DNA of 33,455 nucleotides from Cycloclasticus sp. (GTDB lineage: Bacteria; Pseudomonadota; Gammaproteobacteria; Methylococcales; Cycloclasticaceae): positions 1-33,455 of the forward strand of contig DUCS01000037.1 of NCBI GenBank assembly GCA_012959695.1, written 5' to 3'. Position 1 is the stretch's first letter, and every line of letters begins with the position of its first letter. The notes below the pieces were generated by a model. It was not told where the DNA came from and made no database searches. It saw only the letters and a list, made by a program, of their open reading frames with translations. Position numbers and translations under genes: made by a program. This document shows, one piece after another, positions 22,572-27,353 of this stretch.

Positions 22572-22730
22572 TTATCTGGGATTTCTCCTTCGATCGCTTA
22601 TTCGTCTATCATCTTCAGAGCTGCTTGTCTCTTCTTTGTCTAATGTGTCGTTATATTCCAACCACATTGCATTAATAATGCCAAACGAGCAAGCCAGTAA
22701 AACACCGAGTATCCAAGCAAAGTACCACAT
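22572..22730 (-). CDS. cydX: CydX, small subunit of cytochrome bd oxidase (orphan)
   Basis: 52 residues, too short for usual gene callers. The start MWYFAWILGVLLACSFGIIN, then AMWLE, is the well-conserved CydX/YbgT membrane helix including the Glu after it. A charged tail of about 27 residues (DKEETSSSEDDRRISDRRR) is longer than in E. coli CydX. AAGGA stands 8 bases before the ATG. In complete operons cydX follows cydA-cydB and stabilises the haems of the oxidase. Here only the last 51 codons of cydB precede it, by 11 bases, and cydA is absent. The gene is intact, but its partner subunits are not in the window. It may be a relic or may serve another bd oxidase elsewhere. Confidence 0.85.
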   Translation of the reverse strand: MWYFAWILGVLLACSFGIINAMWLEYNDTLDKEETSSSEDDRRISDRRRNPR

Positions 22731-23261: not shown

Positions 23262-24053
23262 CTAGGCGAGGACAATAATGCCGCGAGAGATGAAGTCATT
23301 AACAATGTTTAGTCCCCCTTCAATAATAATAGCTGGGTTAGGGTATTGTAGGTCGTTTGCTAGTTTGATCAGCAATGCGTTGGTGGTAAGTTCGGTATTG
23401 TCAGCTAAAGCCGTTAGTAAGGCGTGTGTCATTGGCGTGGTTTCAAGGAAACCTGCGCGATTATCATCACTTCTATGCACCACTAGATAAGTGGGCTGTT
23501 CAGGTGCTTCTGTGGGTAATACATCCGGTGATATGGTGTGGACTGGGTATGTGTAGGCCAGCGATAGAGCAGTATGGGCAACACTGAGAACTTGATTAAG
23601 TGGGTCGGTATTTGCAATTTGTTCTGAGTCACCATCTTCCGCGATGGCGACAAACAATTCAGCCCATTCGTAGTGAGCAAGTTCTAACATAAACGGAAAG
23701 TCATCTTTCGCGTCGGGGCTATCATGGCGTTCAGTTTGCAAGTATTGCAAGAACTCCTGAGATATCTCAGAAAAATACGGGCTATGACTCGGGTGGCGAG
23801 CAAAAAAATCGCGGCACAATGCTTCCCAATGTTCCTCTGATGAGATTTGCTTTAACACAGGAAAAGCATCACTGATAACGTTTGAAATATTAGTGAACAG
23901 AAGGTCGCGATACATGTTCATGCGCCGTTCTTCTATATCGGTAGGTCTTGGTGCGTTTTTAGGGTCCCGAATATAGTGTGTGAACGCGTGCTGTGCGCGA
24001 ATAAAAGAGGGGGTGTTATCCGGTTGCACGTTTTTGTTCTTTGTATGAGGCAT
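23262..24053 (-). CDS. hvfC: HvfC/BufC-type DUF2063 partner of the DUF692 oxidase
   Basis: 263 residues. The N-terminal half is the DUF2063 domain (IRAQHAFTHYIRDP, then ERRMNMYRDLLFTNISNVIS and DAFPVLKQI, HWEALCRDFFARHPSHSPYF). FPFMLELAHYEWAEL follows in the middle, and a winged-helix-like C-terminal domain ends the protein. In characterised bufferin/HvfA systems this protein forms a complex with the DUF692 oxidase and presents the precursor peptide to it. It is the last gene of the operon. Its start lies 38 bases inside hvfB in another frame, with no clear ribosome site, so translation is probably coupled. I see no DoxX-type gene after it. Confidence 0.88.
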   Translation of the reverse strand: MPHTKNKNVQPDNTPSFIRAQHAFTHYIRDPKNAPRPTDIEERRMNMYRDLLFTNISNVISDAFPVLKQISSEEHWEALCRDFFARHPSHSPYFSEISQEFLQYLQTERHDSPDAKDDFPFMLELAHYEWAELFVAIAEDGDSEQIANTDPLNQVLSVAHTALSLAYTYPVHTISPDVLPTEAPEQPTYLVVHRSDDNRAGFLETTPMTHALLTALADNTELTTNALLIKLANDLQYPNPAIIIEGGLNIVNDFISRGIIVLA

Positions 24054-24870
24054 GATTTAATTGTGCTTGGTGAATAAGATCGACTTCTTCAAGTAGGTCT
24101 GCGAGCGGCGGAATATTTAAATCACGCTCTAATAAAGTTGGGAATACGCCAAATTCTTGGTAGGCGGTATCGAGTAATTTCCACACCGGATCAATCACGG
24201 TGGTGCCATGTGAATCAATAATGATATCTTCTGACTCGTGATAATGACCAGCGATATGCGCATAAGAGATGCGGTCACCAGGTAGGCCTTTTAGGAATGC
24301 TTCGGCGCTGTATTTATGGTTAACGCTGTTAACGTAAATATTGTTGATATCAATGAGTAATTTGCAGTCTGCTTTTTTAATGACGGCATTTATGAAATCA
24401 ATTTCTTCCATCTCTTTACCTGGTGCAGCGTAGTAAGAGGCATTTTCAATGGCGATTTGTTCGCCAAGAATATCTTGAACTTGAATGATTCTATTGGCCA
24501 CGTAATCAACCGCTTCTTCAGTAAACGGGATGGGCATAAGGTCGTACATATGGCCGCCATCACTGCAATAGGTGAGGTGCTCGGTATATACATTTACTTG
24601 ATGTAGCTTTAAAAAATCTCGAATGTCGCGAACAAATTCTACGTCTAATGGGTCGGGGCTACCAAGGCTAAGCGATAAACCGTGTGATACAAAAGGGAAT
24701 TGTTCGGTTAACGCGCGTAATTGTTTGCCAAATGCGCCACCAATTCGAATCCAGTTTTCAGGTACGATTTCATAAAAATCAACATTACTGGGCGGTTGCT
24801 CAGATAGCGGGCCCGTGAAGGCCCGCCTTAATCCGAGACCTGCTCCCTTAACTGGAAAGGTACTAGTCAT
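24016..24870 (-). CDS. hvfB: HvfB/BufB-type multinuclear non-haem iron oxidase (DUF692, MNIO)
   Basis: 284 residues, a TIM-barrel DUF692 protein. Putative iron ligands are all present: His in FVSHGLSLSLG, Glu in DFYEIVPENW, His in VYTEHLTYCSDGG, Glu in IAIENASYY, Asp in LLIDINNIYVNS, His in YAHIAGH, Asp and His in IIDSHG, and Glu in TLLERD. By knowledge of the HvfB and BufB enzymes, it oxidises Cys of the precursor to oxazolone/thioamide or related Cu-binding groups. It begins 12 bases after the precursor gene and overlaps hvfC by 38 bases. No Shine-Dalgarno is evident before its ATG, so translation coupled to hvfA is likely. Confidence 0.93.
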   Translation of the reverse strand: MTSTFPVKGAGLGLRRAFTGPLSEQPPSNVDFYEIVPENWIRIGGAFGKQLRALTEQFPFVSHGLSLSLGSPDPLDVEFVRDIRDFLKLHQVNVYTEHLTYCSDGGHMYDLMPIPFTEEAVDYVANRIIQVQDILGEQIAIENASYYAAPGKEMEEIDFINAVIKKADCKLLIDINNIYVNSVNHKYSAEAFLKGLPGDRISYAHIAGHYHESEDIIIDSHGTTVIDPVWKLLDTAYQEFGVFPTLLERDLNIPPLADLLEEVDLIHQAQLNHASYKEQKRATG

Positions 24871-24882
24871 TGCTAAGCGGTA

Positions 24883-25254
24883 TTATTTTTTGCCGCCGCA
24901 TTTGCCTTCAGCACATTTGCCTTCAGCACATTTAGCTTCAGCAGCTTTTTCAGATGCTTTAGCAGCAGCACATTTGCCTTCTGCGCATTTGCCTTCTGCG
25001 CATTTAGCTTCTTTAGCTTTTGCAGCCGCTTTGTCGGCGCCACATTTGCCTTCGCCACATTTAGCTTCAGATTTCTTTTCGCCGCCGCATTTGCCTTCAC
25101 CACATTTGCCTTCTGCAAGCACCATGTAACCGGTTTCTAGTTCTGTTGCGCCAAATGGGCTAACGTCTGCGCTTGCTGCTGGAGCAAATGCCATTGATGT
25201 TACGAATGCCGCGCCTAAAGCAGCTACTAATGGTTTTTTTGTAGAATTTTTCAT
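24883..25254 (-). CDS. hvfA: Secreted Cys-repeat RiPP precursor (HvfA/BufA2-like)
   Basis: 123 residues. A Sec signal peptide (MKNSTKKPLVAALGAAFVTS onward) is probably cut after AASA, residue 29. The segment PFGATELETGYMV follows, which is shared by such precursors and may be the docking part. The rest is Lys/Glu/Ala/Gly-rich with ten Cys at 51, 56, 66, 71, 85, 90, 95, 109, 114 and 119. Each Cys lies in E-G-K-C (seven) or E-A-K-C (three). The block EAKCAEGKCAEGKC occurs twice exactly (82-95 and 106-119). There are no Cys before residue 51. AAGGA stands 8 bases before the ATG. In known HvfA the EGKCG cysteines are modified and bind copper. It is the first gene of the hvfABC unit. Confidence 0.92.
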   Translation of the reverse strand: MKNSTKKPLVAALGAAFVTSMAFAPAASADVSPFGATELETGYMVLAEGKCGEGKCGGEKKSEAKCGEGKCGADKAAAKAKEAKCAEGKCAEGKCAAAKASEKAAEAKCAEGKCAEGKCGGKK

Positions 25255-25416
25255 AATAGAGTCCTTTATATTTAATTAGAAATTTCAAACTGTAAATCCA
25301 GTCGTCTTGCATAATTGCCGACGAGAGTGACCGGTTAACTATATGCGATTTAATAGACCATGCAAAGTTAAAAAAACTTACAAGCTTTTTTGCATTGACG
25401 GCATTTACGTTATCTA

Positions 25417-25448: not shown

Positions 25449-26084
25449 TTAGTCGATAGCCTTTTTATTGAATTCACATAGATCCTCTATAACACACGAG
25501 CCACAACGCGGTTTACGGGCAATACAGGTGTATCTACCGTGTAATATTAGTAAGTGATGCGCATCTATCATGAAAGTTTTAGGCACATGCTTAAGAAGTT
25601 TTTTTTCAACGTCTAAAACGTTCTTACCGGGTGCTATTTTGGTACGATGGCTGACTCTAAAGATATGCGTATCGACGGCCATGGTGGGATGGCCAAAGGC
25701 AGTATTAAGTACAACATTTGCTGTTTTTCGACCAACACCAGGCAGGGCTTCAAGTTCCTCACGTGTTTGCGGTACTTCGCTATTATGCAAATCCACCAAC
25801 ATCTTGCAGGTTTTAATGATGTTGGCGCCTTTGGTGTTAAATAGGCCGATGGTCTTAATGTATTCTTTAAGCCCGTCGATACCTAAATCAAAGATGTCTT
25901 GAGGTGTATTAGCGACAGGGTACAGTTTGTCAGTGGCTTTATTGACACCTTTATCCGTTGATTGCGCAGATAAGATAACGGCAATCAGTAATTCAAACGG
26001 TGAACTGTAATTGAGTTCTGTTTCAGGGTCGGGAATGGCTGTGCTGAGGCGTTGAAAAATCTCTAGCCGTTTAGCCTTATTCAT
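25449..26084 (-). CDS. nth: Endonuclease III (DNA glycosylase/AP lyase)
   Basis: 211 residues from ATG 26084, which aligns with the E. coli start (MNKAKRLEI). An earlier ATG at 26117 would add eleven residues and run into the upstream lipoprotein gene. It removes oxidised pyrimidines from DNA. Marks: FELLIAVILSAQSTDKGVN, the helix-hairpin-helix ALPGVGRKTANVVLN with the catalytic Lys, VDTHIFRVSHRT with the catalytic Asp, and a 4Fe-4S site with Cys spacing x6-x2-x5 (CIARKPRCGSCVIEDLC). It lies 7 bases behind the lipoprotein gene. Confidence 0.97.
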   Translation of the reverse strand: MNKAKRLEIFQRLSTAIPDPETELNYSSPFELLIAVILSAQSTDKGVNKATDKLYPVANTPQDIFDLGIDGLKEYIKTIGLFNTKGANIIKTCKMLVDLHNSEVPQTREELEALPGVGRKTANVVLNTAFGHPTMAVDTHIFRVSHRTKIAPGKNVLDVEKKLLKHVPKTFMIDAHHLLILHGRYTCIARKPRCGSCVIEDLCEFNKKAID

Positions 26085-26091
26085 AAGGGGA

Positions 26092-26640
26092 CTATTTGTC
26101 GATAAGCCATTCATCACCTTTTAAAATAATACTGGCTTGCTTTATTTGCGGCACATTAAGGGCGATAGTCGCTTTTAATTGGCTATTTGCAAACGGGGTG
26201 TAATGATCGTAAACCAAGGAGTAATTAACGATAGCGTGTGATTCGTCAACCAGTTCAATGGAGGTTATATCTTGTATGGATTGGCTGACGGCAATCACGC
26301 GAGTATTGCGTAAGATGTCATCGCCCCAAGGCTTGCCAATTAATAATTTTTCACCGACAGGTGTAAATTTTAAATAAACACCAGAACGGCCAGCTTTTTT
26401 GCAACTCACTACGCCAGCATCAACCCATGCTTGTTTATCATCGCAATTCCATCCACGAGAGTCTTCTCCACGTGCATTTGGATTATTGGTAACAATGCTA
26501 ATGGCATAACCTGAGGAAGTATAATTGGCCGTTACTATTTTTAACGCGAGTTTGTTATCTAAAACAGGTGCTTTATGGCAGGCGATCAGCAGGCTGCAAC
26601 TGATGAAAACAAACAGTAATTTGGCTGAATAGTTTAACAT
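26092..26640 (-). CDS. Predicted lipoprotein of unknown function
   Basis: 182 residues from ATG 26640. The frame is open further upstream to 26859, but AAGGAG 6 bases before 26640 and the signal peptide fix the start. The lipobox LLIAC puts the acylated Cys at residue 21, followed by His, so the protein should go to the periplasm-facing membrane after Lgt processing. The mature part of about 160 residues has GWNCDD, VVSCKKAG (two Cys that could pair) and a C-terminal half predicted as beta strands. I do not recognise the family. It is upstream of nth with a 7-base gap and divergent from yrfG. Confidence 0.75.
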   Translation of the reverse strand: MLNYSAKLLFVFISCSLLIACHKAPVLDNKLALKIVTANYTSSGYAISIVTNNPNARGEDSRGWNCDDKQAWVDAGVVSCKKAGRSGVYLKFTPVGEKLLIGKPWGDDILRNTRVIAVSQSIQDITSIELVDESHAIVNYSLVYDHYTPFANSQLKATIALNVPQIKQASIILKGDEWLIDK

Positions 26641-26646
26641 ATCAAG

Positions 26647-26652
26647 CTCCTT
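26647..26652 (-). promoter_or_regulatory. Ribosome-binding site fixing the lipoprotein start
   Basis: AAGGAG on the - strand (26652-26647), 6 bases before ATG 26640. This rejects the longer frame starting at 26859, which would place 73 residues before the signal peptide and overlap yrfG. Confidence 0.8.
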
Positions 26653-26699
26653 AGGCATTAAATTGAATGGGTATTGTAGACGAGTGATTAGGTTAACAG

Positions 26700-27353
26700 A
26701 TGATTGATTGGTCGGAAATAGAAACAGTGATGTTGGATATGGACGGGACCTTATTGGATTTAAGCTTCGATAATTACTTCTGGCGTTCGGTAGTACCTGA
26801 GTATTACGGGCATCAAAAAAACGTCTCGTTTGATGAGGCGGTCGCACATTTAGAGCCAATTTTTAAGGCGCAAGAAGGCTTGTTGAATTGGTATTGTTTG
26901 GATTATTGGACGCGAGAGCTGGGAATAAACATAGCCCAACTAAAAGCGGATACCCAAGCGCATATAAAAGTATTGCCTGATACGCGCGGCTTTTTAGCGC
27001 AACTTCAACAGATGTCTAAACGCTGCATTTTAGTGACGAATGCGCACGTGGATAGTTTAAGCATCAAAATGCAGAAAACGGGTTTAATTGAGTTTTTCGA
27101 CGCGATTGTGTCGTCGCATGATATGGGCTACCCGAAAGAGCAGCAAGGCTTTTGGCAGGCATTTCAAAAACTTGAGTCATTTGATAACGCCACAACCGTG
27201 ATGGTTGACGACAGCTTAAGCGTGCTAAGAGCAGCAGATGTCTTCGGGATTAAACATCTGGTAGCGATTACTCAGCCAGATAGTACCGAACCACCGCGAC
27301 TTGTGAATGAGTATACGGCGGTGGGCAGCATAGGGGAGCTATTCCCAAATTAA
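26700..27353 (+). CDS. yrfG: HAD-family GMP/IMP 5'-nucleotidase, YrfG-like
   Basis: 217 residues. HAD motif I is [20 protein letters not shown], with nucleophile Asp and acid Asp. The stretch after it ([13 protein letters not shown]) is typical of E. coli YrfG and not of other HADs. Motif II is ILVTNAH, motif III the Lys in [10 protein letters not shown], and motif [11 protein letters not shown]. The enzyme dephosphorylates GMP and IMP. It is divergent from the lipoprotein gene by about 60 bases and converges on rhlB, with stop codons overlapping by 4 bases. Confidence 0.88.

Follow-up and report, generated by a model that had tools for sequence, protein, structure and literature searches.

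An hvfABC-type operon with a ten-cysteine precursor in Cycloclasticus, and a leucine in its MNIO enzyme that travels with Cys-Ala motifs

The operon and its surroundings

Three genes in the order hvfA, hvfB, hvfC were found at positions 23262–25254, all on the reverse strand, in the window analysed here, a 33,455-nucleotide stretch (contig DUCS01000037.1) of Cycloclasticus sp., a marine bacterium that degrades oil. The precursor gene hvfA (24883–25254) encodes 123 aa, hvfB (24016–24870) an MNIO (DUF692) enzyme of 284 aa and hvfC (23262–24053) a DUF2063 and RRE-like partner of 263 aa. A 12-base gap (24871–24882) separates hvfA from hvfB, and hvfB and hvfC overlap by 38 bases (24016–24053); the ORF coordinates thus bear out the layout given in the first-pass annotation. 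The host genome is 1.7 Mb in size and 80% complete. The nearest named relatives of the locus belong to Cycloclasticus, the closest being the Bathymodiolus heckerae symbiont with 92% identity in the MNIO. Two further ORFs, one on the forward strand (24815–25129) and one in a reverse-strand frame (24873–25118), look like by-products of the hvfA repeats.

The product of hvfA starts with a Sec-type signal peptide, judged by eye to cover approximately residues 1–29 (25168–25254, reverse strand), followed by the stretch DVSPFGATELETGYMVLA (25114–25167) and the core (24886–25113). The core holds ten E[G/A]KC[G/A] motifs in clusters of 2, 2, 3 and 3, namely EGKCG four times, EAKCG once, EGKCA three times and EAKCA twice. 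Hence all ten Cys fall in the E-G/A-K-C repeats noted earlier, each is preceded by Lys, and five are followed by Gly and five by Ala. The protein passed the KCGExKCG repeat model NF050137 (60.5 bits against a cut-off of 19.5; 8.5e-17) and fell below the cut-off of the HvfA equivalog model NF050188 (55.9 bits against 95), so it is referred to here as HvfA family, not as a strict HvfA equivalog. No match was found in Pfam, DUF2282 included.

The 15 operons of the genus encode HvfA proteins with similar N-termini. In a wider set of 88 operons with a KC-rich precursor (selection described below), a leader-like F..L..GY motif was recovered in 68 precursors with one strict regular expression, and 18 of the 20 missed show, by eye, a looser PF...GY form. 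The leader DVSPFGATELETGYMVLA is likely to be recognised by HvfC. A second precursor was not found in the host genome, where all three NF050137 matches were parts of the same hvfA. In a congener (G003, locus L085), hvfA contains six 45-base repeats that hardly differ from one another, which points to a recent expansion.

HvfB matched the Pfam family MbnB_TglH_ChrH (PF05114, 3.2e-101) and passed NF003818 (424.2 bits against 360). It was below the cut-offs of the bufferin enzyme model BufB (NF050167, 262.3 bits against 310) and the methanobactin enzyme model MbnB (TIGR04159, 40.5 bits against 325). The best match by sequence to a solved structure was PDB 3bww (9.7e-68). The residues that we take to be iron ligands or their neighbours (H63, E142, D174, N176/N177, H205, H209, D219, H221, E248 and D250) were identical in all 88 aligned relatives. 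R15 and R16 were each kept in 86 of the 88. HvfC contained DUF2063 (PF09836, 1.4e-26) and NGO1945_C (PF22106, 1.4e-21) and passed NF050145 (277.3 bits against 142), and its DUF2063 and RRE-like C-terminal domain are the combination found in PME type 1 partners. Its best structural match by sequence was PDB 3dee (1.6e-07).

The family models therefore agree with the first-pass annotation that the operon is of the hvfABC type, with MNIO and DUF2063 proteins and a Cys-rich precursor that is secreted, the DUF692 and DUF2063 profiles being matched as foreseen. The precursor gave no match to DUF2282, which that annotation had named among the profiles to search, and the enzyme scored under the BufB cut-off. 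The precursor belongs to the EGKCG (Lys-Cys) captophorin/oxazolin class and is not a DUF2282 or Buf2 bufferin.

On the hvfC side, hvfC and a hemL-like gene for a class-III aminotransferase flank an orphan-looking cydX (22572–22730, reverse strand; TIGR02106, 66.2 bits; PF08173), and approximately 530 bases next to hvfC contain no ORF of 50 aa. Directly upstream of hvfA is nth, encoding endonuclease III (25449–26117, reverse strand). In three other loci (L018, L053 and L060), hvfA is likewise preceded by an ORF that resembles nth by eye, so the neighbourhood may be old. An ORF of 255 aa (26092–26859, reverse strand) overlaps both nth and a forward-strand ORF that appears HAD-like by eye, and it had no match in Pfam or NCBIfam.

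Distribution, HvfX and the upstream element

An MNIO match was found in all 18 genomes of the genus examined, host included, and 15 carried the full hvfABC set. Of the remaining three, one (G012) had an hvfB fragment at a contig end, with Leu at the site described in the next section, and two (G013 and G016) had a distant MNIO only. The gene order was the same in the 15 operons with 12–22 bases between hvfA and hvfB, and the 38-base overlap was identical in seven. Of 369 gammaproteobacterial genomes sampled, 117 had HvfB over the cut-off, so the system is an ordinary one. Operons of the hvfABC type number in the thousands and are a known, widespread kind. Five congeners contained a second, distant MNIO (L097, L098, L100, L101 and L102; 35–38% identity), with Asp at the site discussed below in four of the five. 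In G017, the distant MNIO follows a Buf2-like precursor with Cys-Lys motifs.

The locus had been described as a minimal form, with no DoxX-type gene. There is none at the locus, but the single DoxX match in the host genome, on contig C19, passed the HvfX model NF050144 (229.4 bits against 80), and HvfX was found in 14 of the 18 genomes of the genus, including 10 of 10 of good quality. Since HvfX is encoded elsewhere in the genome, minimal form is here a matter of location: a gene set may seem reduced to three when the fourth gene is unlinked. In two congeners assembled as a single contig, hvfX and hvfB lie far apart, at 1,977,337 and 2,152,001 (G001) and at 128,184 and 2,105,745 (G007), respectively. 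On C19, a sodium/bile-acid-type transporter gene precedes hvfX and a glutamate-synthase-like gene follows it; the transporter gene is a neighbour in 12 of the 14 hvfX loci, host included. The row of genes that includes hvfX in the host locus (L151, G000:C19:23500-28000) also comprises merR-like, merC-like and transporter genes. Fusions of MerC and bufferins are known (PMC12452194).

Upstream of hvfA, the element TGTAAG-N17-GGTCTAT (25353–25382, reverse strand) was conserved in the genus, GGTCTA being present in all 15 operons and TGWAAG in 14. The strict motif occurs once in the host genome. It looks like a promoter for an ECF sigma factor. Of the 73 loci outside the genus, 15 had TGWAA and GTCTA at the matching distance before hvfA, where simple base shuffles predict 0.29, though 12 of the 15 are from Pseudoalteromonas or Shewanella and so do not amount to 15 independent cases. 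GGTCTAT alone was not enriched (3 of 73 loci, 2.04 expected). A sigma-70 reading, TTTGCA-N17-TATAGT, is also possible, and 7 such sites were found in the region against 7.4 expected, but only the TGWAA/GGTCTA part of the conserved block recurs in Pseudoalteromonas and Shewanella.

The first-pass annotation saw no sigma factor gene beside the operon and we also found none there, though the conserved ECF-like element precedes hvfA. Two ECF-like sigma genes in the host genome were over the cut-off, one beside an RseA-like gene, which we infer to be RpoE itself, and the other beside a DUF3379 gene. The latter is a candidate only for the regulator of hvfA; a literature search found no paper on DUF3379 together with a sigma factor. 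A loosened form of the motif gave a single match, of chance appearance, in the surroundings of the two ECF genes and no match near hvfX. Related systems are controlled by ECF factors, in Caulobacter by sigma-F, with the sequence GTAACC-N16-CGAA (PMC3511200), and in Haemophilus by RpoE2 (PMC7907618). A passage on Neisseria sigma-E (PMC3240639) included no motif. The conserved element offers a route to the regulator.

Leu251 and the residue after cysteine

In the alignment, codon 251 of hvfB (TTA, 24118–24120, reverse strand) is at the site of Phe250 of FonB, the fontiphorin enzyme, and encodes Leu in place of the usual Phe. According to PMC13097082, Phe250 interacts with Lys3 and Gly5 of the substrate in a model, and Phe is conserved at this site in a logo of 100 sequences. 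The Leu thus falls at a specificity site already named in the literature.

To compare operons, rows with identical hvfB, under 50% identity or under 250 aa were left out, as were 20 of the 108 distinct hvfB loci (all with Phe) that had no ORF with at least two KC within reach. In the 88 operons that were kept, the site was Phe in 81 and Leu in seven. The residue after Cys in the precursors of the Phe operons was Gly in 654 of 663 cases, Ala in five and another residue in four, while in the Leu operons it was Gly in 45 of 66, Ala in 20 and Ser in one. At least two Cys-Ala or Cys-Ser per precursor were present in six of the seven Leu operons and in none of the 81 Phe operons. For control, association with this trait was ranked over every column of the enzyme alignment, and Leu251 was first among 1104 column-residue pairs (MCC 0.92, the next 0.71), in a test that was not blind as the Leu had been noticed beforehand. 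Across the 88 operons, Leu in the enzyme and Cys-Ala in the precursor travel together.

One Leu operon (G004; L008, identical to L089) is without any Cys-Ala, and a single Cys-Ala was found in seven Phe operons, five among the 88 and two among the loci left out. A likely precursor in which most Cys follow other residues was seen in eight of the 20 loci left out, and two of these account for one Cys-Ala each. No precursor was recognised in the other 12, several of which end at a contig end.

The search was extended with codon patterns. In 369 genomes of the class, two of them from this genus, there were 106 matches, 99 with Phe, not all confirmed as hvfB, and seven with Leu. The Leu matches were in hvfB in two cases, the host and G017; the other five were discarded as stretches without a recognisable MNIO. 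Codons for E[G/A]KC-Ala-EGKC were found in two of the 369 genomes, both of this genus. Six Leu rows were inspected among the matches listed outside the genus in 301 genomes of the order, and only that of G614 was hvfB; those of G643, G537, G479, G397 and G153 were not, and a further row listed, from G421, closely resembles the G397 and G153 rows in sequence. The G614 locus (L153, G614:C1:252800-257300) is perhaps a decaying or orphan operon, as no precursor was found upstream of its hvfB and no intact partner ORF was recognised downstream.

In a tree of the 15 genus operons, G003 grouped with the six Leu rows in a clade of seven (support 89/90). The residue in G003 is nonetheless Phe, encoded by TTC where the other eight Phe genomes of the genus have TTT, and there is no Cys-Ala among the 14 KC motifs of the G003 precursor. 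Recombination was considered as the source of this Phe and rejected, since hvfB was 87–95% identical to that of G005 in every 90-base window. The seventh Leu operon, L049, lies outside the genus, and four of its eight Cys are followed by Ala. On the tree of the 88 operons, the site changed between Leu and Phe at least three times and the Cys-Ala trait at least four times. This leaves two or three independent contrasts, with on average 1.8 of 2 in the same direction, and the sign test (median p 0.5) cannot reach significance with so few.

Two explanations have to be weighed. One is that the enzyme and precursor co-evolved at a single contact, a change from Phe to Leu opening the pocket for Ala and allowing Cys-Ala to spread, and Phe returning once the repeats had been homogenised to Cys-Gly. 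We put the chance of this just short of even. The other, to which we give a substantial chance that is nonetheless below one half, is that the link reflects shared ancestry or drift of the repeats and has no functional meaning. The placement of six of the seven Leu operons in one clade, the fast turnover of repeats evident from the near-identical units in G003 and the finding that FonBC, with its Phe, accepts EAKCAEGKCA in vitro (PMC13097082) are all consistent with ancestry or drift, and the last means that Leu is not strictly needed. The distant second Leu operon, the return of G003 to Phe with loss of Cys-Ala and no sign of recombination, and the rank of Leu251 among all column-residue pairs argue against it. 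If the co-evolution reading is correct, Leu251 would matter for the turnover of Cys-Ala sites, and the genus would hold a natural evolutionary record of a substrate gate in thiooxazole-forming MNIOs. Of the two proposed routes of ring closure, one makes use of the residue that follows Cys, and the gate would provide a handle for choosing between them. The matched changes in enzyme and substrate, with a reversal within the lineage, make a ready-made test of how MNIOs select Cys.

Proposed role and comparison with known systems

The first-pass annotation expected oxazolone/thioamide groups on the Cys, with a loss of 4 Da for each. The mass change stands, whereas the structure has been revised, the modification of HvfA having been reassigned to 5-thiooxazole (PMC13097082, PMC13419390). 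As this was done by the group behind the original HvfA report, mentioned in PMC13419390, and by another, we regard oxazolone/thioamide pairs at this locus as very improbable. 5-Thiooxazole is present in fontiphorin, oxazolin and gonophorin, and copper binding was observed for the first and the last of these (PMC13097082).

We are confident that the locus is an oxazolin/captophorin-type RiPP operon that works broadly as follows. HvfC would bind the precursor HvfA and present it to HvfB, whose iron cluster, with O2, would convert each Lys-Cys pair to a Lys-derived 5-thiooxazole with a loss of 4 Da per Cys, at up to ten sites. Sec would carry the modified HvfA into the periplasm, where its thiol-bearing rings would bind copper and keep the free metal low. 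The unlinked DoxX-like membrane protein HvfX would be the fourth component. Transcription is probably from the ECF-type promoter just upstream of hvfA. The enzyme site packing around the position that follows Cys is Leu251 in this clade, which would suit a precursor through which Cys-Ala motifs have spread.

A secreted, Cys-rich precursor of this kind is probably copper-binding. The host genome contains two genes of the pMMO/AMO-A family, probably for copper enzymes; these copper monooxygenase A-type genes fit a need to manage copper and prove nothing. They could also be served by a copper-acquisition agent, a chalkophore like methanobactin, supplying particulate hydrocarbon monooxygenases instead of buffering an excess, and the authors of the Microbulbifer study were hesitant about a copper-protective role for an EGKCG RiPP (PMC12538549). 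We nevertheless consider acquisition quite unlikely here, because the precursor begins with a signal peptide, the annotated neighbours (nth, cydX, the class-III aminotransferase gene and a globin gene) include no uptake receptor or exporter, and 5-thiooxazole pathways are reported to respond to an excess of copper, to gold or to oxidants by induction (PMC13097082).

Bufferins, in a scheme where the EGKCG class is Buf_EGKCG, are reported to enhance growth under copper stress (PMC12452194). A Legionella operon of the bufferin type responds to gold as well as copper (PMC5413113). The main task could instead be to protect the cell from oxidants such as hypochlorite, or from other metals such as gold or mercury, with copper binding secondary. 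RpoE2 controls a doxX/DUF2063 cluster of Haemophilus influenzae under hypochlorite (PMC7907618), and the mer-like genes in the row with the host hvfX point the same way. However, merC was present in only four and merR in two of the 14 hvfX loci, host included, some of which were cut by the ends of contigs or stretches, and we judge this alternative improbable, though worth keeping in mind. In the literature searched, no paper had Cycloclasticus, copper and RiPPs as its subject, judged by title and the start of the abstract, and none of the captophorin matches listed named Cycloclasticus in its title.

Compared with known systems, the operon shares a secreted precursor, an MNIO, a DUF2063 partner and the expected thiooxazole chemistry with the Buf1 and Buf2 bufferins of Caulobacter; it differs in having no DUF2282 match, no Cys-Lys motifs, an enzyme under the BufB cut-off and no sigma/anti-sigma gene found adjacent. 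With the oxazolin operon hvfABCX of H. influenzae it has in common that the HvfB and HvfC models are passed, the EGKCG repeats and HvfX in the genome, but hvfX is unlinked, HvfA is below the equivalog cut-off and there are ten Cys of the modified type instead of six. The bulbicupramide operon mmrABC of Microbulbifer (PMC12538549) likewise combines EGKCG cassettes with an MNIO and a DUF2063 protein and is kept through a marine genus. The Cys-Ala motifs and Leu251 would set the Cycloclasticus operon apart. Fontiphorin fonABC (PMC13097082) has the same EGKCG repeats, a DUF2063 partner, only three genes and an MNIO with Arg15/Arg16 and the catalytic-type Asp. In Cycloclasticus, Leu replaces Phe at the Phe250 site, five of the ten motifs end in Cys-Ala and there are ten sites where fontiphorin has seven.
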